A DNA stretch of 64,000 nt, taken from Heterobasidion occidentale. Lineage: Eukaryota > Basidiomycota > Agaricomycetes > Russulales > Bondarzewiaceae. The translations under genes were made by a program, and so were the position numbers. The notes under the pieces were generated by a model that saw nothing but the letters and a program-made list of their open reading frames with translations, did not search any database and was not told where the DNA came from. The stretch is from the NCBI GenBank assembly GCA_039111635.1, contig JBCAQO010000009.1:1860001-1924000 (forward strand). Reading direction: 5' to 3'. Position 1 is the stretch's first letter. The number at the start of each line of letters is the position of its first letter. This document shows, piece after piece, positions 39,626 to 64,000 of this stretch.

Positions 39626-40896
39626 ATGTCCGACCACTCCTCCCTTGATTACTCCCCTGGACGTGCCATGCTCATCGATGACGGAACTACCTCCTCCCCT
39701 TCAAGAAACCCCTCGCCAGACATCATTCTGGCCGTGGCCAACCCCAACACTGGACGCCCTAGCCGAGGCAGCCGCCCAACGACTCCAGAAGGAGTTCCAG
39801 TACAAATCAGTGTCCACCAAACCGCGCTCACCGTCGAAGATCGAACGGGTTCCCGAGCCTCACCACGGTTTGAGAGAGCTCATGACGAGCACGATGAAGG
39901 ACATCAAGCAGAAGGAAGGCATGCTCCGTCAACGCCTCCGCGACCGACATCAGCGTTGGCTCAAAGAGACGCAAGACAGGAAACGAGAGGCGGAAGAAGA
40001 CCAGGAAACCCTTCGGACCTGGCATCGCCTACAACTGTTGAGGCAGGTGTACAAGAACCAGCAACGGCTGGTACATCAGCTGCCAGGACCAGAGGGCCCC
40101 CTACCGGTAGTCGAGATCTGCACCCCGGAGAGTTGGAAGGACTAGGAGACGCCCTACTCCAACGCACCACCATCTCCGCGGTAATCCAGATGGCCACAGC
40201 GCTGGCCTTACAAAGCTCGCTAACTCTTCGCAGGGCAACCAGGAAGCGAGAACGATGACATACCCCGACGCCTCGCTGACGCGAGCGACCAGGTCAGGCT
40301 TCTGGCCTATGCAGACGATCATAGAGCCGCCTCCTGGTACGCCCGAGGAAATAATGGGGCTTACGCCCTACTCATTCATCCGGACGAGTTCTCCTCCTTC
40401 ATCAATCTGGAGCTCCTACCCGCCCTCATCTCGCGCACCGACACAGGGCATTCAAGTCACGCCCATCCCGTTCGGACTGACCCATTCCGCGTCCAACCAT
40501 GGAGCGAAGCTAGCAGAGCGGTACCGGCTACAAGCAGTTGAGACGCATCCACCCAGACCGAATATGTATGGGCTACGGTCCAACGACAGGCACGAAGGAA
40601 TCGAGAGGCCCTTCCTCCCGTATCGGCAGGACAATCCACCGGGCAGGACGCAGGAGGCAGCAATGAGGAGCACCCTCCAAGGTACAGGAGGAATGAGGGA
40701 CGAGGGAGCCAGAGAACAAGGGCAACCCTTCGACCCAGGCGAAGCAGTCCTAGAAGAACTCGACCAAGAGATTCGCCGACTCCAGACCGTCCTCGAGATA
40801 ATCGAGTTGAAGGAGCGCATCCACGGATTAGTAGAAGAACTCCAATCCGCCAGCGCCCGACTCAGCGGACTACTTCCTGGACTCGAGCGGAACTAG
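39626..40896 (+). pseudogene. Copy L extra ORF region downstream of the chromodomain
   Basis: Two overlapping frames are present as in R. The frame beginning MITPLDVPCSSM (39645-40145, 166 codons) is fully open here, whereas R has one stop. The other frame (39626-40258, starting MSDHSSLDYSPGR) loses phase at about 40215 where L lacks one G relative to R, and further on carries a TGA. A third open stretch (40255-40896) ends in a coiled-coil-like segment, VLEELDQEIRRLQTVLEIIE. Function unknown. Confidence 0.6.
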
Positions 40897-40989
40897 ACGC
40901 CTGGGACGAGGTCGAAGGCGACAATTACGACGACGTCGACCCCTACTATCGACCAGATGAAGGATATGGGGATTATGGAGACATTGGCG

Positions 40990-43427
40990 GAGGATACTAA
41001 ACCAGGGAGTTGAGGAACCCCTGGTTTTAACATGATGACGGAGAGGAAAGGACCCTCCGCATCACAGGTACCGGTTTCACGCACAGGACGCCGGAACGGA
41101 CGTCCTGCATGACGTTAAACTGTGAAAAGATAAGAAGGCAGGGGAAGTACCTGACCATTTCGCGTTGCAGCCCTCCGGTCTCAAGATGAAGGACAAGCAT
41201 TCAACACTCTCGTTGTCAAGAGGTATTCTGACAAGCGAATCGGGCGTCCCGCTTGGATCCCCAGTTTTACAAGGCCCTTTCCGCATTAGGAGGCCCTTAG
41301 GATTCACAACATAACTGGTACATGAATGATGCATGAATATTGGTGGGAAATCGTGTTGCATACCCACCGTTGGGGAACGGTGGACCAACCTCGCTGTCAA
41401 GGTCTGACAGGTGTCTTGGACGTCCCACTTTGGATCTCCAGTTTTACAGGGTCGTTTCCGCATTAGGGGACCCTATCAGCGATGCAGGAACTGATGGCCG
41501 CACTCCATTAGTACCCAAAACGGAGAAAATACATCCGCAACGATGTAAAACTACGAAAGGCTTGGTCCGCAATGACGATAAACTAGTTACCGTCCGGAAC
41601 GACGCTAAAGCTACCAAGACCCTCGGAGCGTGGTTGTATTCTGGCAGACGGTGGAAGTGAGGGCCTCCACTGTTGCAGAACCCTGCCGACTAGGTCGAGG
41701 CGCTTCCATATTCCATACGCCCTACAGTAAAAGAATATGGGGTCGACACGGTTCAATTCCGTGCGAGGGGTTTGGGGACGTAGAGCGGGTTGTCAGTCTT
41801 TCGACAAAGACCACAACTACTCCATGGTGCGCCCATTCTACCCTTGAAGTCCGAAGCAAGGATTCCGCTTCGAGGGCCAGTCAAGAGGCAACTGGGATCG
41901 TGCCTCGTGTTTGCTTTCATCCGCAACGATGTAAAACTACGAGCGTCCGCAAAGACGTTAAACTACCACTCCTTTCAGCATAGGAGACGTCGATCGACAT
42001 CGTTGTTGACACCACGATGTTGATCTAGTCCGCGATGACGATAAACTATTTACTCCTTCAAGTATAGGAGACGTGATTGATGGTCACGACCTTGACCATC
42101 AACTAGTCCGAAATGACCTTAAACTACCCTCACCCCGGAGGATTAAATCTATCGAGGCTCGGGAGGCTCAAGCCAGGTGATAGCGGACGTCCGCAATGAC
42201 TATAAACTAGTTGCCGTCCTTCATGACGATAAACTGAGCTGCCCTTCTGTCTACAGGGCCATGTGAGTTGTGTCAAAATAGGCTTCCAGTCTATTCTCGC
42301 AACTCTATAAGTTATCCGGTTTGATATAGTATAAACCGTCACCATCCTTCCTCAATGGGAACCCTGTCAAGATGGCTGTACTTGGTCTAGGGCCCTATGT
42401 GCATCACCGATGAATGTTCCGGCGCACAGAAATGGTCTACCATTTTGTTTACAGGTACTCCTACGTTGGAAGATGGATAGGTCCGCAACGACCTTAGCAT
42501 AAACTGGCAGGGCAGTCCGCAACGACTTCTGTATAAACTAGCCTCAGTCCGCGATGACTTAAGGATAAACTAGCCGACGTCCGCAAAGACGCAAAACTAC
42601 GGACGTCCGGCACGACGTTAAAACTACCAGGACATACCTTACGCTGACCCCGCATAATTACCGTCAAGGTGGATACCATGATCTATTCAAGAGACCATGG
42701 GGTTCAAGTCTATCCTTCAAAGTCCTTACCTCGTGTCCAATACCCTTAGTGAAAACAAATTCTGGACGAACACTCAATCTCTAACCTGACAAGGCCACCG
42801 TATGGGCTGACAGAGTTAGGGATCTTCAAAGGGGTCTTGCCGGACTCAAGACAAGTCAAGAAATGTCGTATTCTTGATAGGTTGGTGGGCCTAAGCCTTA
42901 GTAAAGCGATCAACCCACACACCTGGAGTCCCCCTCGATACCGGAGATCAAGGAGATGAAGATCTATCCTGGAAACACTGAGACATGGCCTTCGGCACTT
43001 TGAAAGAAGAACGACACACACCCATCCACAGACGAGTTTCTATTTCATCCTATAATCATTCGCATAACACCTTTCTGCATCGTCGCCAGATGACACTGGC
43101 TCATCAAACCTACCAGGGCGCCCTGGTCGAGTAGCTGCCTATTGACTCTAGGAGCATACTCACACAAAAACGTACGGTGAAGGAAGAACACCGAGGAGAA
43201 ACACAGTATTGTGGCTGATACTGCAGGACTTCAAATCAAACAGCTCAACGGAGACGGAAAACTCCTAGGCGTTGTAAACGACGTAGGTCGGTCTTCGCCC
43301 CAGAAAACGAAGTGATATTGGGAAGACGCATCCCAATCTATTTCGACGACCAGCAAGCAATTGTATGTGGAATGACGATGAAGCTCGTTTCTGCTCAAGC
43401 GAGTAGTCCCCTCAGGAGTTGGGACCT
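40990..43427 (+). repeat. Copy L structured non-coding array
   Basis: About 2.4 kb without long open frames between the extra ORF and the polypurine tract. Some fifteen copies of a short motif, consensus TCCGCAAYGACNNTAAACTA, recur at irregular spacing (for example near 41102, 41528, 41559, 41592, 41918, 41948, 42031, 42107, 42189, 42216, 42481, 42513, 42546, 42577, 42604). The intervals hold hairpins such as 42077-42086 with 42093-42102 (TTGATGGTCA / TGACCATCAA) and 43204-43209 with 43218-43223 (CAGTAT / ATACTG). See the matching array in R. Confidence 0.8.
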
Positions 43428-43437
43428 AGAAAGGGGG
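43428..43437 (+). promoter_or_regulatory. Polypurine tract of copy L
   Basis: AGAAAGGGGG followed by TAA directly before the 3' LTR. This is the expected plus-strand primer site of an LTR retrotransposon. Confidence 0.8.
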
Positions 43438-43440
43438 TAA

Positions 43441-49757: not shown

Positions 49758-50036
49758 CCATATCAACAGAACAATCCACTGGGCAGGACGCAGGAGGCAG
49801 CATTGAGCAGCATCCTCCAAGCTACAGGAGGAACGAGAGGCGAGGAAACCCGAGGACAAGAACGGTACCCCAACCCGGCCGAGACAGTTTTAGAAGAACT
49901 CGACCAAGAGATTCGCCAACTCCAAACCGTCCTTGAGATAATCAACCTGAGGGAACGCATCCTCACTTTGGTAGACGAACTCAAGTCCACCAGCGACCAG
50001 CTTAGCGAACTGCTGCCTGGACTCGAGCCGAACTAG
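49758..50036 (+). pseudogene. Copy M fragment of the extra ORF (coiled-coil end)
   Basis: Encodes the coiled-coil segment VLEELDQEIRQLQTVLEIIN followed by ERILTLVDELK and LSELLPGLEPN, clearly homologous to the same frame in L and R. The overlapping second frame has a TAA here, but its acidic tail after the stop of the first frame (YDDTDPYYRPD, GDIGGGY) is still recognisable. Confidence 0.65.
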
Positions 50037-50140
50037 ACGCATGGGATGAGGTCAAAGGTGGGAATTACGACGACACCGACCCATATTACCGACCAGACAA
50101 GGGATACAGAGATTTCGGGGACATTGGTGGGGGATATTAG

Positions 50141-51861
50141 ACAAGGGAGTTAAGGAACCCCTTGTCTCAGAAAGTGACAGAGAGGAAAGGACCCTCCACA
50201 CCACAGGTACCGGTTTCACGCACAGGACACTGACGTACGTCCTGCATGACGTTAAACTGTGAAAAGATAAGAAGGCAGGGGAAGTACCTGGCCATGCGCG
50301 TTTCAACCCTCCGGTCTTGGAAGGACAAGCATCTAACACTCTCATTGTCAAGAGGTATTCTGACAAGCAAATTGGGTGTCCCGCTTGGATCCCCAGTTTT
50401 ACAGGACCCTTTCTGCATTAGGAGGTCCTAGGATTCAACAAATAACTGGTACTGATATGCCGGCTTTTCGGTCGTGTGGCGTGACCGAGAGGCTATGATG
50501 ATGCAAGAATATTGGTGGGAAATCGTGTTGCATGTTTACCATTGGGGAACGGTGGACCCTACCTCACTGTCAAGGTCTGACAGGTGTCTTGGACGTCCCA
50601 CTTTGGATCTCCAGTTTTACAGGGTCGTTTCCGCATTAGGGGGCCCTATCTGGGATGCCGGTGACTAGTGGCCGCACTCCACTAAGTAACCAAATAGGAA
50701 AAATTACATCCACAACAATGTAAAACTACGGAAGGCTTGGTCCGCAATGACTATAAACTAGTTACCATCCGGAACAACGTTAAAGCTACCAAGGACCCTC
50801 GGAGCGTGGTTGCATTCTGGCAGATGGTGGAAGGGAGGGCCTCCACCATTGCAGAACCCTGCCGACTAGGTCAAGGCACTTCCATATTCCATACGCCTTA
50901 CAGTAAAAGAATATGGGGTCAACACGGTTCAATTCTATGCGAGGGGTTTAGGGACATGGAGCGGGTTGTCAGCCATCTGACAGGACCATGACTACTCCAT
51001 GGTGCACCCATTCTACCCTTGAAGTCCAAAGCAAGGATTCCGCTTCAAGGGCCAGTCAAGAGGCAACTGGGATTGTGCCTCAGGTTTTGACGTCCTCCAT
51101 GACGGTAAACTGGGATTGCCCTTTGCTTTACAGGGCTAACATCCGCAAAGACGTTAAACTACCACTCCTTTCAGCATAGGAGATGTCGATTAACATCGTT
51201 GTTGACACCACGATGTTGATCTAGTCCGCAATGACGATAAACTATTTACTCCTTCAAGTATAGGAGATGTGGTTGATGGCTATGACCTTAGCCACCAACT
51301 AGTCCGAAATGACCTTAAACTACCCTCACCCCGGAGGTTTAAATCTATCAAGGCTCGGGAGGTTCAAGCCAAGCAATAGCGGACGTCCGCAAGGACTATA
51401 AACTAGTTGCCGTCCTTCATGACGGTAAACTTAGCTGCCCTTCATGTACAGGGCCATGTGAGTTGTGTCAAAATAGGCTCCAACGTCTATTCTGGCAACT
51501 CTATAAGTTATCCGGTTTGATATAGCATAAACCGTCACCATCTTTCCTCAATAGGAACCCTGTCAAGACGGCTGTACTTGGTCTAGGGCCCTATGTGCAT
51601 CACCAATGAATGTTCCAGCGCACAGAAAAGGTCTACCTTCTTGTTTTACAGGTATTCCTACGTTGGAAGATGGATAGGTCTGCAACGACCTTAGCGTAAA
51701 CTAGCAGGGCAGTCCGCAACGACTTATGTATAAACTAGCCTCAGTCCATGAAGACTTAAGGATAAACTAGAGGACGTCCGCAAAGACGCAAAACTACGGA
51801 CGTCCAGCACGATGTTAAACTACCAGGACATACCTTACGCTGACCCCAAAATAATTACCGT
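50141..51861 (+). repeat. Copy M structured non-coding array
   Basis: Same modular array as in L and R, with the motif TCCGCAAYGACNNTAAACTA and variants repeated more than a dozen times (for example near 50232, 50739, 51090, 51131, 51223, 51301, 51386, 51412, 51677, 51712, 51742, 51777). Hairpin 51273-51282 with 51289-51298 is the counterpart of the L hairpin at 42077 and carries paired substitutions. Confidence 0.8.
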
Positions 51862-52937
51862 TGATGAGCATGCACCCACGCTAGGGTCCGAGGGAGGTAT
51901 TCGGGAAGCTTTGGGGAGATACCAAACTACGCTAGACAAGTACCGAAGACGCCGACTGCACCAAACACGGTCGGTCCCTACCCAACCGACCGCAAGCCAC
52001 CGAAGGACATTTGGCAGCACTTGGGTCAGTTCGCCCACACTTCACATACTTACCATAACCGCACAGGAGTGTTACAATAGGTGTTTACGAGATCGGAGCC
52101 AGTATTCCGTGTTGGCCGATGTGCTCCGTGAGTCGGTCGGTCCTTATCGCTTATCTTCCCGACTTCCACATGGTCGGCCAAACGTGATCTTGCACCATTA
52201 CTTGGCCACCCTGGTCGTACGTTACTTCTTCTTTATTTTCATTGGTTCTCCAACGCCTGTTCCTGCTACCTACACTCGGGCGACGGATCCCAAACGTTCA
52301 GGATTTCACCATCGCTGATTAACTTTTACCTTATCACCTTCGGAACCCATATGGACATCTCACCTACCTTCTTATCTTCTCTGTGCGCTATGGCTTGGCG
52401 CCCATTCAACATCTACTCTCATTTCTTGTTTAATATTTTACTTAGGGGCTCTGTTTACTATAAAAACCTACATACAACTCTGGAATAAAACAGCTTTCGC
52501 ACCCCACAGTTCAGAGCTCATTCGCACTTGTCTCAACCATTGAAATCGTCTTCATCGACTCCCGAAAACTTGTCATCTTCGTCGTTCGGCCTTGTTCACG
52601 TTCGTACTCATCTCTTCGCTCGTGCCCCTCGTCCTCCCTCGTATATTGTCAGAGTCCCGTGTGGCTCTTGAAGCACGTAGTTGTCGGCCGCAACACTACC
52701 TTCTCGTTAGCGACCAAATCGCCGACACGACCGACCGAATGTTCGGTCGGTGTTCGGTGCAGTCCCGAAACCGTTCGGGCGCTATAATCTCATACTCCCT
52801 GTTGTTTCTCAGTACGCCGTCAATTTCTAAAGTCATCACTAACAATTCCTTGTGTATCAGATACTAGCTCCAGCACCCCTGCCTTAGAGGTTGTTTTAGT
52901 GTTGCGCTCGGCACTTAGAGCCACCTCTAGCGTATCA
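51862..52937 (+). repeat. Solo LTR of family 2 inside copy M
   Basis: 1076 bp, TGATGAGC...GTATCA, with no internal element sequence. It splits the array at a point that is ATAATTACCGTCAAGG in L and R. Flanks read ACCGT before and CCGTCAAGG after, a 4-bp CCGT target-site duplication. Confidence 0.88.
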
Positions 52938-53675
52938 CCGTCAAGGTGGATACCATGGTTTGCTCAAGAAACCATGGGGTTCAAAGTCTATTCTTTGAAA
53001 TCCTTACCTCGTGTTCAATACGCAGAGCGCGGCTGCATGCTCGCTCCCATGTGACAAACAAACTCTGGACAAACACCAATCTCTAACCAGGACGGGCCAC
53101 CGTATGGGGCTAACAGAGTTAGGGATCTTCAAAGGGGTCTTGCTGGACTCAAAACAAGTCAAGAACCGTCTATTCTTGATAGGTTGGTGGGCCTAAGCCT
53201 TAGTAAAGCAATCAACCCACACACCTGGAGTCCCCCTCGATACCGGAGATCACGGAGATGAAGATCTATCCTGGAAACACTGAAGCATGGCCTTTGGCAT
53301 TCTGAAGAAGAATGACACACACCCATCCACAGACGAGTTTCTATTTCATCATATAATCATTCGCACAACACCTTTCTGCATCGTTGCCAGAGCAGAGAAA
53401 CTGGCTTAACAAACAGTACCAGGAGAGGCCTGGTTTGAGCAGCTGCCTATTGACTCTAGGAGCATACTTGCAACAAAACCATACTGGTGAAGGAAGAACA
53501 TCGGAAGGGTGACGCAATATTGTGGCGATATTGCTAGGTACCTAAACCAAACAGCTCAATGGAGATGGACAACTCCTAGGCGTTGTAAACGACGTAAGTC
53601 GGTCTTTGCCCCAGAAAACGAAGTCATATCGGGAAGACGCATCCCAATGATTATTGGACGACCAGAAAGCAATTG

Positions 53676-54262
53676 TGTTATGACTTGACCGATCGGGGCC
53701 CTTCGCGGCCGGTCTAACCGATGGATCAAGCATCACATGCTAGGCGGCTCCACTACGGAGCGTACATCAAGGTATTCGGCATGTCCTTAGGAGCCGACAA
53801 GACCGATGGTTCTTCAAGACATCGGTAGAGGCTATATGAGAGGGACATGAGGCTCACGAAGTTCACACAGTAATAAGGGAGGCATTCACATGCCATGGGC
53901 CTAGGGCTTATGGGTAAGCACCTCGTCGCACCATGATGGATCAGTGCGACTAGAGAAGTACAAGAGTAGGCGCCGTTGGGAAAGACGGCGGCCACAGCTC
54001 TCCTAGGATGGAAACCTGGAGAAGCACACGGACTCTTACCCTATACCCTATACAGTATATAAGGCCCATAGAATAGGCTGAGGATCTTCAGTCTATTCTC
54101 TTCGTCCTTACACAGTCCTCACACTGTGTAACTTAGAGCCAATCGTTATTCCCTCCTGTATCATTGCCTGATACAGTCGAGACTTCGCCCACCACTCAGT
54201 CCATTGTGCGACCTAGGGAAGAACCTGTTACTCTTGGGTTACTGAACGAGCAGTTCATAACA
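53676..54262 (+). repeat. 5' LTR of copy R
   Basis: 587 bp, TGTTATGACTTGACC...TTCATAACA. Homologous to the LTR at 43441-44056 and to the partial one at 63874. It directly follows copy M sequence truncated at CAGAAAGCAATTG and is directly followed by R's own leader, so I assign it to R rather than to M. Confidence 0.88.
54056..54099 (+). promoter_or_regulatory. TATA box and predicted transcript start of copy R
   Basis: TATATAA at 54056-54062 and AGTCTATTCT at 54090-54099, 34 bp downstream. The second segment is taken as the RNA 5' end because its complement forms the primer site just after the LTR. Confidence 0.6.
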
Positions 54263-54734: not shown

Positions 54735-55949
54735 ATGTCAAATCCTACAGACCCTCCCGTCTCGTCGGGAAGGGGCAAACTCAAACTCCCTGATAACTTC
54801 GAAGGGGACCGAACACAATCACAGAAATTCATCATGAATTGCCTCCTCCTTTTCACAACAGAATCAGACCGATACAAGACGGATACAGACAAGGTTTCCC
54901 TCGCTCTCTCGTGCATGAGATACGGGACGGCCGGCGTATGGGCAGAGAGCTTCCTAAAGAGGACAGTAGGGGCGACCCCGCCCAAGACCGTAGGAACTTG
55001 GGACGACTTCCTTGTCAGGTTTAAACTCCAGTTCAAGGAAACGAACCTCACGGACAAGGCCCGAAGCGCCCTCATGTCTTTCTCTCAGGGGAAGATGACA
55101 GTGGATGAATATTCAAATCAATTCATCCTTATCGCCGCCGACGCCGACATCACCGATAAAGAACAGGTTCCCTATTTCCAGAGAGGGCTTGACCCGAGGG
55201 TCATGGACAAAATCTATGACAAGGAAACTCCGCCGAAGGACACGATCCAAGATTGGGTCAACACTGCCTGTGAAATAGATGGACACCTAAGAGCCCGAAG
55301 TGCTCAAAAGGCGATCCTCGCCAACTCCACCTCATTCCGAAGCGACTTCCTCAATCGCTTCCACCTCCAACCCGCTCGTCGTTATAACTCTACCACCGCT
55401 CCTCGCAGAATGAACAACCAGGTGGTTGACATGGATATTGATGCCTCTCACAAAAGAGATGCCGATCGAAACAAACGTGTATACAATGGCAAGAGACCCG
55501 CTCCCTTTTCCTGCTACAATTGCGGAAAACCAGGGCACGGGATAGCTGATTGTCGTTCCCCTCGTAGAGGCGTTCCCCCGTCTCGAGGAAATTCGCGCAA
55601 GTCGGTGGGCAGAGGAGGTAGACGAACTCGCGCTGCAGACATGGAGGATGAAGACGAGCAAGGATCCCCGGTGGGAGACGATGCGCGACTACATCGAGGA
55701 CTGGAGGAGGGGAGTTCTCATGGCCACCACCGTCGGGTACCACAACCTGGTAATTCGGTGGAACGTGAGGACCCTTCCGCGAGAAGGGGAGGATCACGCC
55801 AGAGCGATGGAGAGCGCTACGTACCGCCTAACGGACGACGAGGAAACGGACCCGTCAGTGATACTAATGGCGTCCGAGCGCTCTTCCAAGAAGTAGGGAA
55901 GGCGGAAGCAAAGAAGATGTTGGTGGATCTGGCAGAGGATTTTTCCTGA
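54735..55949 (+). CDS. Family 1 Gag
   Basis: 404 residues from the first ATG. The capsid-like helical region (residues about 15-190) includes KLKLPDNFEGDRTQSQKFI, ALSCMRYGTAGVWAESFL and SYSQGKMTVDEYSN-like FSQGKMTVDEYSNQFILIAA. A CCHC zinc knuckle CYNCGKPGHGIADC lies near residues 259-272, followed by an R/G-rich tail. The same frame is open upstream as far as 54267 with protein-like content (YFFTREDGTEAEWAWDE, EIPDTSEEEEG) but no ATG, so the real N-terminus is uncertain. Its end overlaps the upstream extension of the pol frame (gag frame to pol frame is a -1 step). Confidence 0.85.
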   Translation: MSNPTDPPVSSGRGKLKLPDNFEGDRTQSQKFIMNCLLLFTTESDRYKTDTDKVSLALSCMRYGTAGVWAESFLKRTVGATPPKTVGTWDDFLVRFKLQFKETNLTDKARSALMSFSQGKMTVDEYSNQFILIAADADITDKEQVPYFQRGLDPRVMDKIYDKETPPKDTIQDWVNTACEIDGHLRARSAQKAILANSTSFRSDFLNRFHLQPARRYNSTTAPRRMNNQVVDMDIDASHKRDADRNKRVYNGKRPAPFSCYNCGKPGHGIADCRSPRRGVPPSRGNSRKSVGRGGRRTRAADMEDEDEQGSPVGDDARLHRGLEEGSSHGHHRRVPQPGNSVEREDPSARRGGSRQSDGERYVPPNGRRGNGPVSDTNGVRALFQEVGKAEAKKMLVDLAEDFS

Positions 55950-56026: not shown

Positions 56027-59000
56027 ATGAACAGTCACATTATTACCCCCATTCGACTTGACGTGCGATTAACAACTCGAGGAAGAAGCGCTGGAGCCAG
56101 GGCCGCCATCGACTCAGCATGCGAAGGGATTTTGGTAAACGAGGGGTGGGTACAGAAGCACAATCTTCCCACTTATCCTTTAAACCGCCCCATCCGCGTT
56201 CGCAACGTCGATGACACCATCAACAAGGCAGGCCTCATTCGACGAGGCCTGGACGCAAATCTCACCGTCAAAGATAGACGGGGGAGAACTCACACCGAGC
56301 GCGTCCAGATGTTCATCACCAATCTAGGGAAAGACGACATGCTCCTAGGAACAGATTGGTTGAAATACCACGACCCCTCCATCGGGTGGAGGCGGCGTGA
56401 AGTACACTTTGATCGATGCCCCAGAGATTGCCAACAACCATATGGGTTTACCAAGGCAAGGGAAGAGCCTACCAGGAAGGCATGGCTAGCGAAACTACGC
56501 GGTGACAAGATTCCCCAGCGAACAAAACCACATCTTGTCTCAGAACTGGCAGGACCTTCGTGGACTTGGACTAGAGAACAATGGAGCCAAGTACCCGCGA
56601 AGGAATGGAAAGCTCGGTTCATGGAGCTACTCGAGCACAAATCCCGACAACGCAAAGCTCGGGAATGGCTCGAGGAGCAAATAACCGAAAGGAAGGAACG
56701 CCGGCAAGCTCAGCAAAAAGCAACCCAGGGCGAAGCTTCAAGGAAAGTCGCTGAAGAAGCGCAAACACCGTCTGACTCCTCCGCAATGGATAGCGCAGGA
56801 GAACCCGTCATTAGGAAGGTAGCTCCAGAACCCTCGGGGTTCGCAAGCTTCGACGAAGACCTGGAGGAAGAAATCGACACCACCGACTTGAAAGGTCGGG
56901 TGCCGATAGAATATCATTCTTACCTCGACATCTTCAGCGAACGACGATCGCAGAGGCTCCCCCAACATACAATATGGGACCACGCGATAAACCTCAAACC
57001 GTCTTTTGTACCCCAGGCCCCACGGATATTTCCCCTGAGCCCGGAAAAGCATGACGAGTTGGGGAAGTTCGTCAAAGAGCACCTTTTCAGAGGAACAATA
57101 CGTCGGTCAACAGCACATAGCGCGGCCTCTTTCTTTTTTGTAAGCAAGAAAGATGGGAAGCTCCGTCCGGTACAAGACTATCGTCACCTTAACGAACACA
57201 CTATTCGAGATGTCACCCCCCTGCCATTAATCCAAGAACTATTGGATATCATTAAAGGCGCAACGGTGTTCTCAAAGCTCGATGTTCGGTGGGGATATAA
57301 CAACGTGCGCATCAAGAAAGGAGACGAGTCCAAGGCGGCCTTCGTCACACCCTTGGGACTCTTCGAACCTACAGTGATGTTCTTTGGGCTCTGTAATTCC
57401 CCGGGAACCTTCCAAGCCATGATGAACATGATCTTCCAAGAACTCATCCTGGCCCGGAAAATAGCGGTATATATGGACGACATCCTCATCTTCACGAAGA
57501 CCACAGCGGAACACGTTGTGATTCTTCGACGAGTCCTCCAAATCCTGCGCGACAACGATCTTTACCTCAAACCAGAGAAGTGCGAGTTCCACAAGGAGAA
57601 GCTGAACTACCTTGGGTACACAATCTCAAAAGACCACGTCGCTATGGAAGACTCGAAGATTGAAGCTATCCAGGAATGGCCCATCCCACGCACAGTTCGC
57701 GACATCCGCTCTTTCTTAGGCTTAGGGAACTTCTACCGACGATTCATTGATAAATTCTCTTTGATCGCTCGGCCCCTGCATGACCTCACGAAGAAGGATG
57801 TGAAATGGGACTGGACCACGGAGTGCCAACAGGCATTTGACCGACTGAAGAAAACCTTCATCAGCCAACCCGTCCTGTTGTACCCTGACCCGATGCGCCC
57901 TTACCGGCTTGTTACCGACGCTTCCCTCGCAGCATATGGTGCAGTCCTCTTACAGGAAGGACCGGATAGCGACTGGCACCCTGTTGCATATCTCTCAGGA
58001 TCGTTCTCACCGGCCGAACGAAATTACGACGTGCATGATCGCGAACTCCTCGCCATCATCAAGGCACTGGAACACTGGAAACACTACCTCGAAGGCGCTC
58101 GACATCCCTTTGAGGTCTGGACGGACCATAAAAACCTAGAACACTTTAAGACGGCGCGCGACCTGTCAAGGCGACAAGCGCGCTGGAGTCTGTTTTTGTC
58201 CAGATTTAATTTCCAGCTCAGTTACAAGGCTGGAACTACTAATCATGCCGATGCTCTGTCCAGGCGTCCAGACCTTAGTGAGGGGGTGGAATCTGATAAC
58301 AAGGCACAGACTCTACTCCCGTCCAGACTTTTCACCGAGTCCAGCGAAACTCTAGTAGAGCCAAGCGAAGGCATACACGTCAAAGCAACAGAACTCGTAT
58401 CCTCAGACATCCTCTCCCTTATTCGACACTCGCGCTCGGAACACGATTTGCTGGTTGATGTCGCCCTCAAGAAACTGCTGGAAAAAGGTCCAAACACAAT
58501 GAAGGGCGACCTAGGAAAATGGACACATGAAGAGGGCATTACAAGACGCGACGGTTACATATGCGTCCCAAAGGACGACCTCCTTCGACGAATGATTGTC
58601 AAAACGCACCATGACACTATGGCTACAGGACACCCGGGCCGAGCAAAGACCTTAGAATTGGTCCAACGCCATTACTGGTGGTCAAGCATGACCAAATTTG
58701 TACACGCGTATGTGGATGGATGTGCAGTTTGCCAATCTACCAAGAACCTTCCCCATAGGACCCATCCACCGATCCAACCGCTGGAAACCACAAACGTCCC
58801 TTGGCGCTTTATCTCCACCGACTTCGTGACAGACCTCCCAGAAAGCAGAGGCTACGACTCGATCAACGTGGTAGTCGATCAGGGTCTGTCAAAAGGAATA
58901 GTCATAACCCCGTGCAAGAAGACAATCACGGCCGAAGAAACCATGATGCTCTTCCAGGACAATGTGTTCAAACGATATGGTTTACCAACCAAAGTGGTGT

Positions 59001-59317
59001 CCGACAGAGGTCCTCAATTTGCGGCAAAGTTCACAAGGGAACTATGGAAAGGAATGGGAATCACCCCTGCCCTCAGCACGGCTTACCACCCCCAAACGGA
59101 CGGAGAAACAGAACGGGTAAACCAAGAGATCGAGCAATTCCTGCGAGTTTTCTGCAACTACCATCAAGATAACTGGGTAGACTTGATCCCCTTCGCAGAA
59201 TTCTCCCACAATACCGAAGACACTCCGCCACTGGGAAGTCGCCGTTTGAAGTCCTTTATGGGTTCAATCCACCATATTCGGTCGACTCAGCTCTGGAGAC
59301 CAAGGTACCCGCAGTAA
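56027..59317 (+). CDS. Family 1 Pol: protease, reverse transcriptase, RNase H, integrase (frame lost near 59213)
   Basis: The frame starts at an ATG at 56027 but is open further upstream into the end of gag (GRGFFLTSPSPAEERGLRK), so it is probably made by -1 frameshifting or as a fusion. Domains: protease with AAIDSACEG (D at residue 29; DSA instead of DSG/DTG) and LLGTDWLKYHDPSIGW; RT with FFFVSKKDGKLRPVQDYRHL and catalytic YMDD (about residue 482); RNase H with VTDASLAAYGAVLL and EVWTDHKNLEHF; integrase zinc motif HHDTMATGHPGR with CAVCQ; DDE core TDFVTDLP, VSDRGPQF, GETERVNQEIEQF. Near 59213 R reads AATACCGAAG where L reads AACACCCGAAG; the lost base shifts the rest of integrase, and residues after about 1062 are out of frame. 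Confidence 0.92.
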   Translation: MNSHIITPIRLDVRLTTRGRSAGARAAIDSACEGILVNEGWVQKHNLPTYPLNRPIRVRNVDDTINKAGLIRRGLDANLTVKDRRGRTHTERVQMFITNLGKDDMLLGTDWLKYHDPSIGWRRREVHFDRCPRDCQQPYGFTKAREEPTRKAWLAKLRGDKIPQRTKPHLVSELAGPSWTWTREQWSQVPAKEWKARFMELLEHKSRQRKAREWLEEQITERKERRQAQQKATQGEASRKVAEEAQTPSDSSAMDSAGEPVIRKVAPEPSGFASFDEDLEEEIDTTDLKGRVPIEYHSYLDIFSERRSQRLPQHTIWDHAINLKPSFVPQAPRIFPLSPEKHDELGKFVKEHLFRGTIRRSTAHSAASFFFVSKKDGKLRPVQDYRHLNEHTIRDVTPLPLIQELLDIIKGATVFSKLDVRWGYNNVRIKKGDESKAAFVTPLGLFEPTVMFFGLCNSPGTFQAMMNMIFQELILARKIAVYMDDILIFTKTTAEHVVILRRVLQILRDNDLYLKPEKCEFHKEKLNYLGYTISKDHVAMEDSKIEAIQEWPIPRTVRDIRSFLGLGNFYRRFIDKFSLIARPLHDLTKKDVKWDWTTECQQAFDRLKKTFISQPVLLYPDPMRPYRLVTDASLAAYGAVLLQEGPDSDWHPVAYLSGSFSPAERNYDVHDRELLAIIKALEHWKHYLEGARHPFEVWTDHKNLEHFKTARDLSRRQARWSLFLSRFNFQLSYKAGTTNHADALSRRPDLSEGVESDNKAQTLLPSRLFTESSETLVEPSEGIHVKATELVSSDILSLIRHSRSEHDLLVDVALKKLLEKGPNTMKGDLGKWTHEEGITRRDGYICVPKDDLLRRMIVKTHHDTMATGHPGRAKTLELVQRHYWWSSMTKFVHAYVDGCAVCQSTKNLPHRTHPPIQPLETTNVPWRFISTDFVTDLPESRGYDSINVVVDQGLSKGIVITPCKKTITAEETMMLFQDNVFKRYGLPTKVVSDRGPQFAAKFTRELWKGMGITPALSTAYHPQTDGETERVNQEIEQFLRVFCNYHQDNWVDLIPFAEFSHNTEDTPPLGSRRLKSFMGSIHHIRSTQLWRPRYPQ

Positions 59318-59670
59318 CTGAACGTTTGCGGCTAATCAAAGAAGTCCAAGAAGATGCGGCCGCAAGTCTACAAATAGCAGCGCAGCACGCCAAGGACCGG
59401 GACCTACACAGGAAACTTCCGCAGTGGGAAGTAGGAACCCAAGTTTGGTTAGAAGGAACCCATATTTGGACGACTCATCCGAAATTCAAGCTGGCACCTA
59501 GACGCTATGGCCCCTTTCCAGTGATTGAAAGAATCGGTCCTCTGGCTTATCGGTTGGAAATACCCGAAACATGGAAGATACACCCGGTGTTTCATGCCTC
59601 CATACTCACGGAATATCACGAGACAGAGGCCCACGGAAGGAACTTCCCCAGACCTGCCCCGAGATCCTGA
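59215..59670 (+). pseudogene. Integrase C-terminal part, displaced by one-base deletion
   Basis: In the shifted frame: HSATGKSPFEVLYGFNPPYS, then RLIKEVQEDAAASLQIAAQH, the GPY/F-like module RRYGPFPVIERIGPLAYRLE and HPVFHASILTEYHETEAHGR, ending RPAPRS at a TGA. This is the normal continuation of the integrase interrupted at about 59213. Confidence 0.85.
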
Positions 59671-59879
59671 ATGAAGAAGAGCACTACGAAGTGGAGGCCA
59701 TTCTAGATTCAAGACGCCAGGGACGAGGGACCAAGTACCTTGTCAAGTGGGTCGGGTACTCCGAGGCTGATAACACTTGGGAACCCTTTGCCCTCCTCAA
59801 AGATACGGCTGACGAGGCGCTTCGTGAATTCCACGAAAGCTATCCAGACAAGCCCCGACCAGCGGCAATTAGGCTTTAG
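59660..59879 (+). CDS. Chromodomain
   Basis: ILNEEEHYEVEAILDSRRQ, then TKYLVKWVGYSEADNTWEPF, and a final helix (DEALREFHESYPDKP). The aromatic cage positions Y, W and W are present. Chromodomains at the end of integrase direct chromoviruses to marked chromatin. It is read in a different frame from the integrase tail, and copy L has the same frame relation. Confidence 0.88.
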
Positions 59880-59935: not shown

Positions 59936-61312
59936 ATGTCCGACCACTCCTCCCTTGATTATTCCCCTGGACGTGCCATGCTCATCGATGACGGGACTAC
60001 CTCCTCCCCTTCAAGAAACCCCTCGCCAGACATCATTCTGGCCGTGGCCAACCCCGACACTGGACGCCCTAGCCGAAGCAGCCGCCCAGCGACTCCAGAA
60101 GGAATTCCCATACCAATCATTGTCCGCCAAACCGCGCTCGCCATCGAAGGTCGAATAGGTCCTCGAACCTCACCACGGTTTGAGGGAGCTCATGACGAGC
60201 ACGATGAAAGACGTCAAGAAGAAGGAAGACCTGCTCCGTCAACGCCTCCGCGATCGACGGCAGCGTTGGCTCAAGGAGACACGAGGCAGGAAACAAGAGG
60301 CGAAAGAAGACCAGGAAACCCTGCGGACCTGGCATCGCCTACAGTTGCTGAGAGAAGTGTACAAGAACCAGCAACGGCTGGTACATCAGCTGCCGGGACC
60401 AGAGGGCCCCCTACCAGTAGTCGAGATCTGCACCCCGGAGAGTTGGAAGGGCTAGGAGATGCACTGCTCCAGCGCACCACCATCTCCGCGGTAATTCAGA
60501 TGGCCACAGCGTTAGCCTTACAAAGGCTCGCTAACTTCTTCGCAGGGCAACCAGGAAGCGAGAGCGACGACATACCCCGACGCCTCGCTGACGCGAGCGA
60601 CCAGGTCAGGCTTCTGGCCTATGCAGATGATCATAGGGCCGCCTCCTGGTACGCCCAAGGAAATAATGGGGCTTACGCCCTACTCATTCATCCGGACGAG
60701 TTCTCCTCCTTCATCAATCTGGAACTCCTACCCGCCCTCATCTCGCGCACCGACACAAGACACTCCTCCCACGCCCATCCCGTTCGGATTGACCCATTCC
60801 GCGTCCAGCCATGGAGCGAAGCTAGCAGAGCGATACCGGCTACAAGTAGTCGAGACGCATCCACCCAGACCGAATACGTCTGGGCTACGGTCCAACGACA
60901 GGCCAGAAGGGACCGAGAGGCCCTTCCTCCCATATCGGCAGGACAATCCACCGGGCAGGACGCAGGAGGCAGCAATGAGGAGCATCCTCCAAGGTACAGG
61001 AGGAATGAGGGACGAGGGAACCACAGGACAAGGGCCATTCTTCAACCCAGGCGAAGCAGTCCTAGAGGAACTCGACCAAGAGATTCGCCGACTCCAAACC
61101 GTCCTCGAGATAATCGAGCTGAAGGAGCGCATCCACGCATTGGTAGAAGAACTCCAATCCGCCAGCGCCCGACTCAGCGAACTACTTCCTGGACTCGAGC
61201 GGAACTAGACGCCTGGGACGAGGTCGAAGGTGACAATTACGATGACACCGACCCCTATTATAGGCCGGATGAAGGATATGGGGACTACGGAGACATTGGC
61301 GGAGGATACTAG
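59936..61312 (+). CDS. Extra ORF downstream of pol, overlapping a second open frame
   Basis: 458 codons, uninterrupted, starting MSDHSSLDYSPGR and ending in an acidic tail (DEVEGDNYDDTDPYYRPDEG). Rich in R, P, S, E and Q, no transmembrane segment or signal peptide, so not an env gene. A second frame overlaps it in two blocks: 59955-60455 (charged helical, LRQRLRDRRQRWLKET, with one TAG at 60156-60158) and 60621-61208 (ending in the coiled coil VLEELDQEIRRLQTVLEIIE). By eye, between L and R the first block of the second frame has about 20 amino-acid changes in 166 against about 31 in the same stretch of the main frame. The middle of the main frame (LLAYADDHRAASWY, HPDEFSSFINLELL) and its acidic tail also look coding. 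Function unknown. Confidence 0.55.
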   Translation: MSDHSSLDYSPGRAMLIDDGTTSSPSRNPSPDIILAVANPDTGRPSRSSRPATPEGIPIPIIVRQTALAIEGRIGPRTSPRFEGAHDEHDERRQEEGRPAPSTPPRSTAALAQGDTRQETRGERRPGNPADLASPTVAERSVQEPATAGTSAAGTRGPPTSSRDLHPGELEGLGDALLQRTTISAVIQMATALALQRLANFFAGQPGSESDDIPRRLADASDQVRLLAYADDHRAASWYAQGNNGAYALLIHPDEFSSFINLELLPALISRTDTRHSSHAHPVRIDPFRVQPWSEASRAIPATSSRDASTQTEYVWATVQRQARRDREALPPISAGQSTGQDAGGSNEEHPPRYRRNEGRGNHRTRAILQPRRSSPRGTRPRDSPTPNRPRDNRAEGAHPRIGRRTPIRQRPTQRTTSWTRAELDAWDEVEGDNYDDTDPYYRPDEGYGDYGDIGGGY

Positions 61313-63860
61313 ACGAGGGAGTCGAGGAACCCCTTGTCGACAAACAAGGTGACGGAGAGGAAAGGACCCTCCGCACCTCAGGTACCGGTTTCACGCACAG
61401 GACGCCGGAACGAACGTCCTGCATGACGTTAAACTGTGAAAAGATAAGAAGGCAGGGGAAGTACCTGACCATTTCATATTGCAGCCCTCCAGTCTCAAGA
61501 TGAAGGACAAGCATTCAACACTCTCGTTGTCAAGAGGTATTCTGACAAGCGAATCGGGCGTCCCGCTTGGATCCCAGTTTTACAAGGCCTTTCCGCATTA
61601 GGAGGCCCTTAGGATTCACAACATAACTGGTACATGAATGATGCATGAATATTGGTGGGAAATCGTGTTGCATACCCACCGTTGGGGAACGGTGGACCAA
61701 CCTCGCTGTCAAGGTCTGACAGGTGTCTTGGACGTCCCACTTTGGATCTCCAGTTTTACAGGGTCGTTTCCGCATTAGGGGACCCTATCAGCGATGCAGG
61801 AACTGATGGCCGCACTCCATTAGTACCCAAAACGGAGAAATAACATCCGCAACGATGTAAAACTACGAAAGGCTTGGTCCGCAATGATGATAAACTAGTT
61901 ACCGTCCGGAACGACGCTAAAGCTACCAAGACCCTCGGAGCGTGGTTGTATTCTGGCAGACGGTGGAAGTGAGGGCCTCCGCCGTTGCAGAACCCTGCCG
62001 ACTAGGTCGAGGCGCTTCCATATTCCATACGCCCTACAGTAAAAGAATATGGGGTCGACACGGTTCAATTCCGTGCGAGGGGTTTGGGGACATGGAGCGG
62101 GTTGTCAGTCTTTCGACGACAAAGACCGCAACTACTCCATGGTGCGCCCATTCTACCCTTGAAGTCCGAAGCAAGGATTCCGCTTCGAGGGCCAGTCAAG
62201 AGGCAACTGGGATCGTGCCTCGTGTTGGGCTCATCCGCAACGATGTAAAACTACGGGGTGTCCGCAACGACGGTAAACTACGGACGCCCTCCATGGCGTT
62301 AAACTGGGATTGCCCTTTTTCCTTTACAGGGCCATGAGCAGTGTCCAAACATGAGATATGTTTCGACATTGCTGCGTCCGCAAAGACGTTAAACTACCAC
62401 TCCTTTCAGCATAGGAGATGTCGATCGACATCGTTGTTGACGCCACGATGTTGATCTAGTCCGCAATGACGATAAACTATTATCCCTCGTCCTAGGGATC
62501 GTATTGGAGCTAGAATTACCGTTTCTAGCTGCAATAGTCCGAAATGACCTTAAACTACCCTCACCCCGGAGGATTAGATCTATCAAGGCTCGGGAGGTTC
62601 AAGCCAGGTGATAGCGGACGTCCGCAATGACTATAAACTAGTTGCCGTCCTTCATGACGATAAACTGAGCTGCCCTTCTGTCTACAGGGCCATGTGAGTT
62701 GTGTCAAAATAGGCCTAAAGTCTATTCTCGCAACTCTATAAGTTATCCGGTTTGATATAGTATAAACCGTCACCATCTTGCCTCAATGGGAACCCTGTCA
62801 AGAAGGAGGAACTGGTCTACGGCCCTATGCGCATCACCGATGAATGTTCCGGCGTGCAGAAACGCCTGCTTTCTTGTTTACAGGTACTCCTACGTTGGGA
62901 GATGGATAGGTCCGCAACGACCTTGGCATAAACTAGCAGGGCAGTCCGCAACGACTTATGTATAAACTAGCCTCAGTCCGCAACGACTTAAGGATAAACT
63001 AGCGGACGTCCGCAAAGACGCAAAAACTACGGACGTCCGGCACGACGTTAAACTACCAGGACATGCCTTACGCTGACCCCACATAATTACCGTCAAGGTG
63101 GATACCATGGTCTATTCAAGAGACCATGGGGTTCAAAGTCTATTCTTCAAAGTCCTTACCTCGTGTCCAATACCCTTAGTGAAAAACAAACTCTGGACGA
63201 ACACTCAATCTCTAACCTGACAAGGCCACCGTATGGGGCTGACAGAGTTAGGGATCTTCAAAGGGGTCTTGCCGGACTCAAGACAAGTCAAGAAAAATGT
63301 CGTATTCTTGATAGGTTGGTGGGCCTAAGCCTTAGTAAAGCGATCAACCCACACACCTGGAGTCCCCCTCGATACCGGAGATCAAGGAGATGAAGATCTA
63401 TCCTGGAAACACTGAGACATGGCCTTTGGCACTTTAGAAGAAGAACGACACACACCCATCCACAGACGAGTTTCTATTTCATCCTATAATCATTCGCACA
63501 ACACCTTTCTGCATCGTCGCCAGATGACACTGGCTCATCAAACCTACCAGGGAGTCCTGGTCGAGTAGCTGCCTATTGACTCTAGGAGTGTACTCACACA
63601 AAACGTGCGGTGAAGGAAGAACACCGGGAGGAGGGACAGGGTATTGTGGCTATGCCCCGAACTTCAAATCAAACAGCTCAACGGAGAAGGAAAACTCCTA
63701 GGCGTTGTAAACGACGTAGGTCGGTCTTCGCCCCAGAAAACGAAGCGATATTGGGAAGACGCATCCCAATCTATTTTGACGACCAGCAAGCAATTGTATG
63801 TGGAATGACGATGAAGCTCGTTTCTGCTCAAGCGAGTAGTCCCCTCAGGAGTTGGGACCT
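61313..63860 (+). repeat. Copy R structured non-coding array
   Basis: 2.5 kb without long open frames. Copies of TCCGCAAYGACNNTAAACTA or close variants start near 61417, 61846, 61878, 61905, 62234, 62261, 62286, 62377, 62460, 62538, 62621, 62648, 62911, 62945, 62977, 63009 and 63035. Two degraded inverse copies lie at about 61566-61590 and 61750-61775 (CCAGTTTTACA..TTTCCGCATTA). The intervals hold hairpins: 62338-62345 with 62365-62372 plus an inner stem; 62482-62487 with 62494-62499; 62503-62515 with 62523-62535; 63105-63113 with 63121-63129; 63639-63644 with 63652-63657. Confidence 0.82.
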
Positions 63861-63870
63861 AGAAAGGGGG
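63861..63870 (+). promoter_or_regulatory. Polypurine tract of copy R
   Basis: AGAAAGGGGG, followed by TAA and the LTR start, identical to copy L. Confidence 0.8.
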
Positions 63871-63873
63871 TAA

Positions 63874-64000
63874 TGTTATGACTTGACCGATCGGGGCCCT
63901 TCGCGGCCGGTCTAACCGATGGATCAAGCATCACATGCTAGGCGGCTCCACTACGGAGCGTACATCAAGGTATTCGGCATGTCCTTAGGAGCCGACAAGA
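63874..64000 (+). repeat. 3' LTR of copy R, cut by the window end
   Basis: Starts TGTTATGACTTGACCGATCG; only the first 127 bp are in the window. Here it matches the 5' LTR at 53676 more closely than the LTR of copy L (both share GGCGGCTCCACTACGG and ATTCGGCATG), as expected for the two ends of one insertion. Confidence 0.9.

Follow-up and report, generated by a model that had tools for sequence, protein, structure and literature searches.

Why should some 2.5 kb of a long terminal repeat (LTR) retrotransposon, past its last open reading frame (ORF), be composed of hairpins interspersed with copies of one short motif? The question is raised by a 64,000-nt stretch of the Heterobasidion occidentale genome (contig JBCAQO010000009.1, positions 1,860,001 to 1,924,000; hereafter the window), which holds three such arrays in copies of a Ty3/Gypsy element. 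The array of the third copy (61,313-63,873) contains 15-17 motif copies among hairpins, and arrays elsewhere in the genome bring the total to 52, so that the ~15-copy motif array reported by the initial annotation in the 3' region of a Gypsy element is confirmed. The accompanying remark that no described family is similar has to be withdrawn, since there is a match between the motif and the coremin type of Xrn1-resistant RNA, xrRNA_C (PMC10520033). Judged from sequence, the array probably represents tandem coremin-type exoribonuclease-resistant RNAs (xrRNAs) in the 3' untranslated region of a transcript that belongs to a fungal Ty3/Gypsy chromovirus. It is a known RNA device in a new setting and at a new scale.

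As described in PMC10520033, xrRNA_C consists of a 4-bp hairpin 1 with a YGAD or YGNNAD loop, a UUAAACUAC spacer, as in GUCCGAAGACGUUAAACUAC, and a required hairpin 2 that is conserved in structure only. Known carriers of coremin are beet necrotic yellow vein virus (BNYVV) and other RNA viruses, including fungal hypo- and chrysoviruses (PMC10520033, PMC5869530); recurrence of the motif in a single RNA (Figure 1 legend) and fungal dsRNA viruses are already listed, and the three-dimensional structure of coremin was unsolved as of 2023 (PMC10520033). The motif of the array is the stem-loop GUC[CGCAAY]GAC followed by NNUAAACUA, often with a second hairpin of free sequence next to it. What had been taken for a conserved linker between hairpins is indeed conserved, but it is itself hairpin 1 plus spacer, with the next short hairpin as hairpin 2. 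The array and xrRNA_C have in common the GUC/GAC stem of hairpin 1 with its outer pair, a spacer ending in UAAACUA, a hairpin 2 preserved as structure only, location in 3' non-coding sequence on the sense strand and, in 6/16 units of the third copy, a YGNNAD loop. In contrast with its viral counterparts, the array belongs not to an RNA virus but to an LTR element that is reverse-transcribed and has become fixed in the genome of a fungus, amounts to 15-17 units per RNA, and has long extra hairpins before hairpin 1, 7-nt gaps in three units, seven loops ending in C and three lacking G.

The repetition of the motif is not in doubt. At no more than three mismatches the pattern TCCGCAAYGACNNTAAACTA matches the window 25 times, against 0.06 expected, always on the + strand (three of the nine matches in the third copy are exact), and when gaps of 2-7 nt are allowed the arrays at 40888-43439, 50030-53676 and 61300-63872 hold 14, 12 and 15 copies, respectively. 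Genome-wide there are 678 exact matches (330 forward, 348 reverse); the same pattern read backwards, which served as control here and in the IMG/VR scan described below, gives 0 and 0. The 52 aligned loci all come from this one 45 Mb assembly (159 contigs), contain 773 relaxed motif copies (median 15, range 8-19) and range in pairwise identity from 65% to 99.96% (mean 91%). Twenty of them were picked at exact-match positions along two contigs, irrespective of similarity, and each of these twenty has 7-15 motifs.

Hairpin 1 has the short covarying stem that defines xrRNA_C. The suggestion that the ends of the motif pair (TAGT...ACTA) fails, such pairing being possible in only 2/16 units; it is GUC/GAC within the motif that covaries instead, as does, more weakly, the pair immediately outside it. 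In the third copy, pairs 1-3 form in 16/16 units and pair 4 forms in 12/16 (shuffled mean 8.25, p 0.029), and entire stems are exchanged (ACAUC/GAUGU, AGGUC/GACCU, ACGCC/GGCGU). Among 208 distinct fungal versions of hairpin 1, pairs 1 to 4 are canonical in 187, 204, 192 and 148, with TA/CG, GC/AT and CG/AT among the exchanges seen. The spacer is as in GUUAAACUAC, ending in UAAACUA in 10/16 third-copy units, in UAAACUG in three and in AAAACUA in three. The six-base loop is for the most part CGNAAN, and units with a strict YGNNAD loop number at least two in each of the 52 loci (median 5, range 2-8). Loops CGCAAU, CGAAAU and CGCGAA stalled Xrn1 when placed in the BNYVV context (PMC10520033), and the first two of these occur in the third-copy array.

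Hairpin 2, scored as a hairpin of at least 4 bp starting within 6 nt after the spacer, directly follows 11/16 third-copy units, against 4.0 ± 1.8 in shuffled sequence. Over the 52 loci it is present in 278 of 400 distinct downstream stretches (84.9 ± 6.5 shuffled; these are related copies, not 400 independent cases), and at random points of the same arrays 540/2080 positions have a hairpin of this kind. Its sequence is free: three clearly different cassettes are found at 62480-62537, all of them laid out as short hairpin, long hairpin and hairpin 1, and what persists directly downstream of the spacer is structure only. Where units are 26-34 nt apart, the following hairpin 1 can act as hairpin 2. 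Pair-by-pair analysis of covariation with a global null was abandoned (only three of the first ten pairs listed are canonical, at 94% or above, throughout); because swapped segments confound such a scan, covariation was assessed stem by stem against a local phylogenetic null. Stems with at least two compensated pairs number 17, against 7.0 ± 2.6 (maximum of 40 nulls, 13). Stems with at least one do not exceed the null (65 against 55 ± 7; maximum 73). The covariation check that had been proposed for these hairpins is thus passed at the stricter level and not at the looser one.

The core of the motif is also the slowly changing part of the array. Its columns are half as variable as the remainder (0.052 against 0.101), and 0/1645 circular shifts are as low. 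Most fixed are loop base 5 (0.006) and the spacer (0.017); variation reaches or exceeds background at loop base 6 (0.160) and at the two free positions of the spacer (0.113). The constraint on loop A5 and spacer agrees with published biochemistry.

The same core recurs far from fungi. Scanning IMG/VR for GTCCGCAAYGACNNTAAACTA yields 64 stretches with the exact motif and 0 with the reversed control, and a scan of GTDB genomes yields 35 matches, all with titles of bacteria that we take to be Bacillota or members of a candidate phylum (Patescibacteria). (Loci L059-L122 and L158-L195 are from IMG/VR, L123-L157 from GTDB.) Named carriers are Lactobacillus prophage Lj928, between Ljo_1458 and Ljo_1459, and Synechococcus phage S-B43. 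Hairpin 1 and spacer are identical letter for letter with those of the array, GUCCGCAAYGACNNUAAACUA, and we know of no name for this widespread intergenic hairpin. When left free in the search, pair 2 is canonical in 108/108 distinct instances (UA82 AU15 CG7 GC3 UG1) and pair 3 in 91/91 (GC82 CG8 UG1); pair 4 is canonical in 75/82. The covariation score of the phage alignment is 0.661, against 0.139 ± 0.033 for shuffles, of which 0/500 reach it. A covariance model of 62 IMG/VR instances, hand-chosen from the 102 IMG/VR loci, matches the window 29 times at E < 0.03 (lowest E 1.9e-7), always on the + strand and always within the three arrays.

That the phage matches are chance coding of one protein motif seemed likely at first and was rejected: 110/118 distinct phage and bacterial instances lie outside ORFs of at least 150 aa (if 100 codons from stop to stop are taken as a less strict criterion, 24/102 instances are inside an open frame). 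The motif is intergenic, often shortly past a stop codon, and the next ORF is on the same strand for 83 of the 118 and on the other strand for 23. In Lactobacillus-type prophages it is often located ~10 nt past a tRNA T-arm-like hairpin and ahead of a terminator-like stretch (L064, L072, L074, L075, L077, L078, L080, L084, L088, L093, L101, L105, L162); L105 has copies with loops CGCAAU and CGAAAU between tRNA genes. The tetraloop form of the motif is in no clear excess in phages as a whole (20 stretches against 13 in the reversed control). Nine of these 20 have CGAA in one recurring context, GTCCGAAGAC..TAAACTA (L198, L199, L201, L204, L207, L208, L209, L214, L216), L208 containing the exact published plant-virus coremin 20-mer, and a small hairpin 2 is present in 6/7 distinct CGAA cases. 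The pentaloop form gives 5 stretches, 4 of them in open frames.

What such a hairpin would oppose in bacteria is likely, by analogy, RNase J as the counterpart of Xrn1. RNase J (PF17770) is encoded in 31/32 of the motif-carrying prokaryote genomes searched and in 7/14 control genomes, an association confounded by kinship because most carriers are Bacillota. Flaviviral xrRNA stops bacterial RNase J1 in vitro, and also yeast Dxo1 (PMC5760640). This precedent, which is not a test of the phage hairpin itself, makes a block of RNase J by that hairpin plausible. The phage and bacterial versions differ from the array in that they are mostly single intergenic copies, show no excess of hairpin 2 and reside in hosts with RNase J rather than Xrn1. 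That hairpin 1 and its spacer form a cross-domain exonuclease block, used by RNA viruses against Xrn1, by the fungal element as a 15-fold, cassette-traded ladder and by phages of RNase J hosts, is a tentative proposal, to which we would give somewhat less than an even chance.

The Rfam search of the array, at both thresholds, finds no family at cut-off; ribozyme and riboswitch families, considered as candidates, have no Rfam support. The xrRNAs of flaviviruses and of tombus- and solemoviruses resemble the array in tandem copies and in the proposed mechanical block to a 5' to 3' exonuclease (PMC5760640, PMC10520033), but have larger, ring-like pseudoknotted folds and match nothing in the array by sequence or Rfam model. 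GP20-b RNA (RF03003) overlaps the motif at sub-threshold scores in three phage loci (L160, 33.8 bits; L158, 31.7; L177, 24.0; cut-off 36.2), so that its gathering score is not reached, and it has no match in 11 further phage loci or in the window; its annotated pairing is unlike that of the motif. In these same three loci the motif continues into a second hairpin resembling GP20-b, a hint that a coremin-like hairpin 1 may lie within GP20-b or next to it. The literature search found no coremin in retrotransposons or phages among the full-text matches listed, subscription journals being mostly outside its coverage, and in PMC10520033 the strings 'retrotransposon', 'phage' and 'bacteri' have 0 occurrences each.

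Several observations weigh against assigning the array to xrRNA_C. Ten of the 16 third-copy loops depart from the tested consensus, seven by ending in C (YGNNAC) and three by lacking G, and a CGAAAC loop was not resistant, even though natural loops ending in C are listed (PMC10520033). At loop bases 1-3 the pattern of constraint disagrees with the published biochemistry: base 3, expected to be free, is conserved (0.032), and bases 1 and 2, expected to be fixed, are less so (0.071, 0.075). The units at 62234, 62261 and 62287 are conserved no more than their surroundings. Five of the 16 third-copy units have no hairpin 2 of at least 4 bp within 6 nt, and a stricter 3-bp test shrinks the fungal excess to 103/317 against 61.3 ± 6.4. 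Phage hexaloop instances show no excess at all (15/121 against 13.9; 6/119 against 9.4 by the stricter test), and therefore the phage match supports hairpin 1 and spacer only; either less is required against RNase J or the hairpin has another task in phages. In the phage alignment, 2/5 covariation measures (number of changing pairs and number of pair types) are not above shuffles. Finally, the array as a whole is no more stable than shuffled sequence, and its minus strand is equally stable: the mean folding z of the 3' region is -0.75 (+) and -0.95 (-), with 8/41 windows below -2 on either strand, the strongest at 62295-62540 (for comparison, gag-pol has mean z -0.34 and 7/84 windows below -2). 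The structural case stands on covariation and anatomy, not on folding stability. On balance, the array belongs with coremin by hairpin 1, spacer, hairpin 2 and position, and in part by loop; the activity is a predicted one.

How would a coremin array act on the element's RNA? After decapping or cleavage, Xrn1 would degrade the transcript in the 5' to 3' direction and halt just before a unit. What would persist are 3' fragments that retain the rest of the array and the end with the 3' LTR, and the array could in addition tie up Xrn1. About 15 units in a row would be redundant stops, and therefore single failures would hardly matter. Genes for XRN_N proteins are present in this genome, and yeast Xrn1 processes the viral RNA inside yeast cells (PMC5869530). 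Of what use this might be to the element is a matter of speculation: it could protect the 3' end that is needed for reverse transcription, sequester Xrn1 or hold back scanning ribosomes. The initial annotation had guessed at a packaging, stability, export or processing element, or else at an array of small RNA units. Structured RNA is supported by covariation, by confinement to the sense strand in the window and by the conserved core, and stability is the favoured item of that list.

A packaging or dimerisation array, in which the hairpins are repeated sites for Gag or the ORF3 protein and gather genomic RNA into particles, is the least improbable of the alternatives, though an unlikely one. 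It would suit a repeated hairpin with conserved loop and tail on the sense strand only, adjoined by an ORF3 of unassigned function; a virus-encoded RNA-binding protein, however, would account neither for the sharing of the 21-nt core with phages from several groups of bacteria nor for the agreement with a motif that Xrn1 assays have defined. Rather less probable is that the units chiefly block scanning or reinitiating ribosomes, or serve as another translation or processing signal, with exonuclease resistance secondary. xrRNA_C does slow scanning ribosomes in vitro (PMC10520033), and in 52/118 instances the intergenic phage and bacterial motif has a stretch resembling a ribosome-binding site, together with a start codon, within 70 nt, against 19% at random points. 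The retrotransposon array, however, comes after the last ORF, and no scanning ribosomes are expected there.

Plant LTR retrotransposons have hypervariable 3' regions with tandem repeats, and one might regard the array as a neutral, repeat-rich region of this sort that is maintained by recombination. Eight of the 52 copies (L041, L042, L043, L045, L055, L057, L058 and copy 1) do lack whole modules, the junctions falling at motif copies with 23-54 nt in common, so that recombination or template switching at the motif deletes units, and L033 has additional short repeats. Other rearrangements, such as a replacement at 61610-61840, start away from the motif. Head-to-tail repeats of whole units, as in plants, are not seen: most units share only ~21-27 nt, and the intervening hairpins differ, although a few longer unit pairs exist. 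Since core columns are the most conserved, stems compensate and the core recurs in unrelated genomes, this explanation is already disfavoured, and we rate it as very unlikely. Least probable is that the array is a cluster of milRNA-like hairpins acting as precursors of small RNAs. The tandem arrangement of many short hairpins might suggest it, but the conserved part is hairpin 1 plus spacer rather than a long duplex, no Rfam family matches above cut-off, and array stems of 4-13 bp are short for Dicer.

In the third copy the phage-trained covariance model returns 17 units at 61415-63055 (all matches up to E 10; E values below refer to this model, and all features are on the + strand). The first, at 61415-61436, has the off-consensus loop CUGCAU (E 1.6). 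It is followed by a unit with the compensated stem ACAUC/GAUGU, loop CGCAAC and spacer AAAACUA (61844-61865), one with loop CGCAAU, which fits YGNNAD (61876-61897), and a weak one with loop CGGAAC (61903-61925; E 0.34). Two units have the loop CGCAAC, at 62232-62253 (spacer AAAACUA) and 62259-62280, ahead of a variant with compensated stem ACGCC/GGCGU and loop CUCCAU (62285-62306; E 4.1). The unit at 62375-62396 (CGCAAA, fitting YGNNAD) is served by hairpin 2 CUCCU/AGGAG (62400-62417), canonical in all cells and with two compensated pairs. A long hairpin (62423-62456) precedes the best-scoring unit, 62458-62479 (CGCAAU, fitting YGNNAD; E 1.9e-7), whose hairpin 2 AUCCCU/AGGGAU (62482-62499) lies in the cassette that other copies have swapped for unrelated hairpins. 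The unit at 62536-62557 (CGAAAU, fitting YGNNAD) has hairpin 2 CCUC/GAGG (62559-62572), and that at 62619-62640 (CGCAAU, fitting YGNNAD) can use the following hairpin 1 as its hairpin 2. Then come a variant with loop CUUCAU (62646-62667; E 2) and its hairpin 2 GCCCU/AGGGC (62672-62690), three CGCAAC units with 7-nt gaps (62909-62935, 62943-62969, 62975-63001), one with loop CGCAAA, which fits YGNNAD, and spacer AAAACUA (63007-63029), and finally one with loop CGGCAC (63034-63055).

The array had been described as filling about 2.5 kb before the 3' LTR. The motif does not extend that far: its last copy ends at 63,055, and the final 0.8 kb to the LTR has hairpins but no motif. Some hairpins of this segment (63060-63872) have compensated pairs, for example 63287-63312 (three) and 63750-63770 (two); it would be the segment common to all protected fragments. 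Elsewhere in the region a tRNA T-arm-like hairpin, CACGG-UUCAAUU-CCGUG (62059-62075), has its loop retained in nearly all copies shown and a compensated stem pair in one; a tRNA scan of the window called none. A second, paralogous pair of hairpin units, CCAGUUUUACA...UUUCCGCAUUAGG, lies outside the coremin motif at 61525-61620 and 61700-61795, with stems that differ yet stay complementary.

The element itself is a Ty3/Gypsy chromovirus, with gag, reverse transcriptase (RT), RNase H, integrase and chromodomain between LTRs. In the third copy (+ strand) the 5' LTR is at ~53676-54262 (blastn matches, with the end placed by comparison with the homologous LTR in copy 1), gag at 54735-55949 (Retrotrans_gag and zinc knuckle, by domain scan) and pol at 56027-59879 (RT, RNase H, integrase, SH3_Tf2-1 and chromodomain; pieces were scanned separately; the reading frame of this copy is interrupted). 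ORF3 (59936-61312) encodes 458 aa without a Pfam match. Over 51 copies, substitutions at its three codon positions stand at 1723:929:2392 and point to coding constraint in its frame; because 208/213 of its indels in those copies are not multiples of three, most copies are broken. The non-coding 3' region with the coremin-like array (61313-63873; 2.5 kb) comes after it, followed by a likely polypurine tract, GAAAGGGGG, at 63862-63870 (read from the sequence, with its function presumed) and by the 3' LTR from 63874, truncated by the window end at 64000 (blastn). The arrays of copy 1 (40888-43439; blastn, motif scan and covariance model) and of the diverged copy 2 (50030-53676; blastn match interrupted at ~51861-52934) are likewise on the + strand. 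Other Ty3/Gypsy chromoviruses with long 3' regions share the gag, RT, RNase H, integrase, chromodomain and LTRs; the extra ORF3 and the 2.5-kb structured 3' region set this element apart.

Yeast Ty elements have links to P-bodies and Xrn1, and with the array one can test directly how the RNA of a retroelement encounters decay. RNA viruses are the known users of exonuclease-resistant RNAs; an array of them in an LTR retrotransposon would extend Xrn1-resistant shaping of RNA to genome-resident elements and would, if the reading is true, be the largest natural exonuclease-stalling ladder, yielding nested non-coding RNAs of the retroelement. The hundreds of natural variants are a mutational record for the coremin motif, and the phage instances lead one to predict that an RNA of 21 nt can halt a bacterial 5' to 3' exonuclease. 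One miniature RNA-protection device may thus be common to very different mobile elements.

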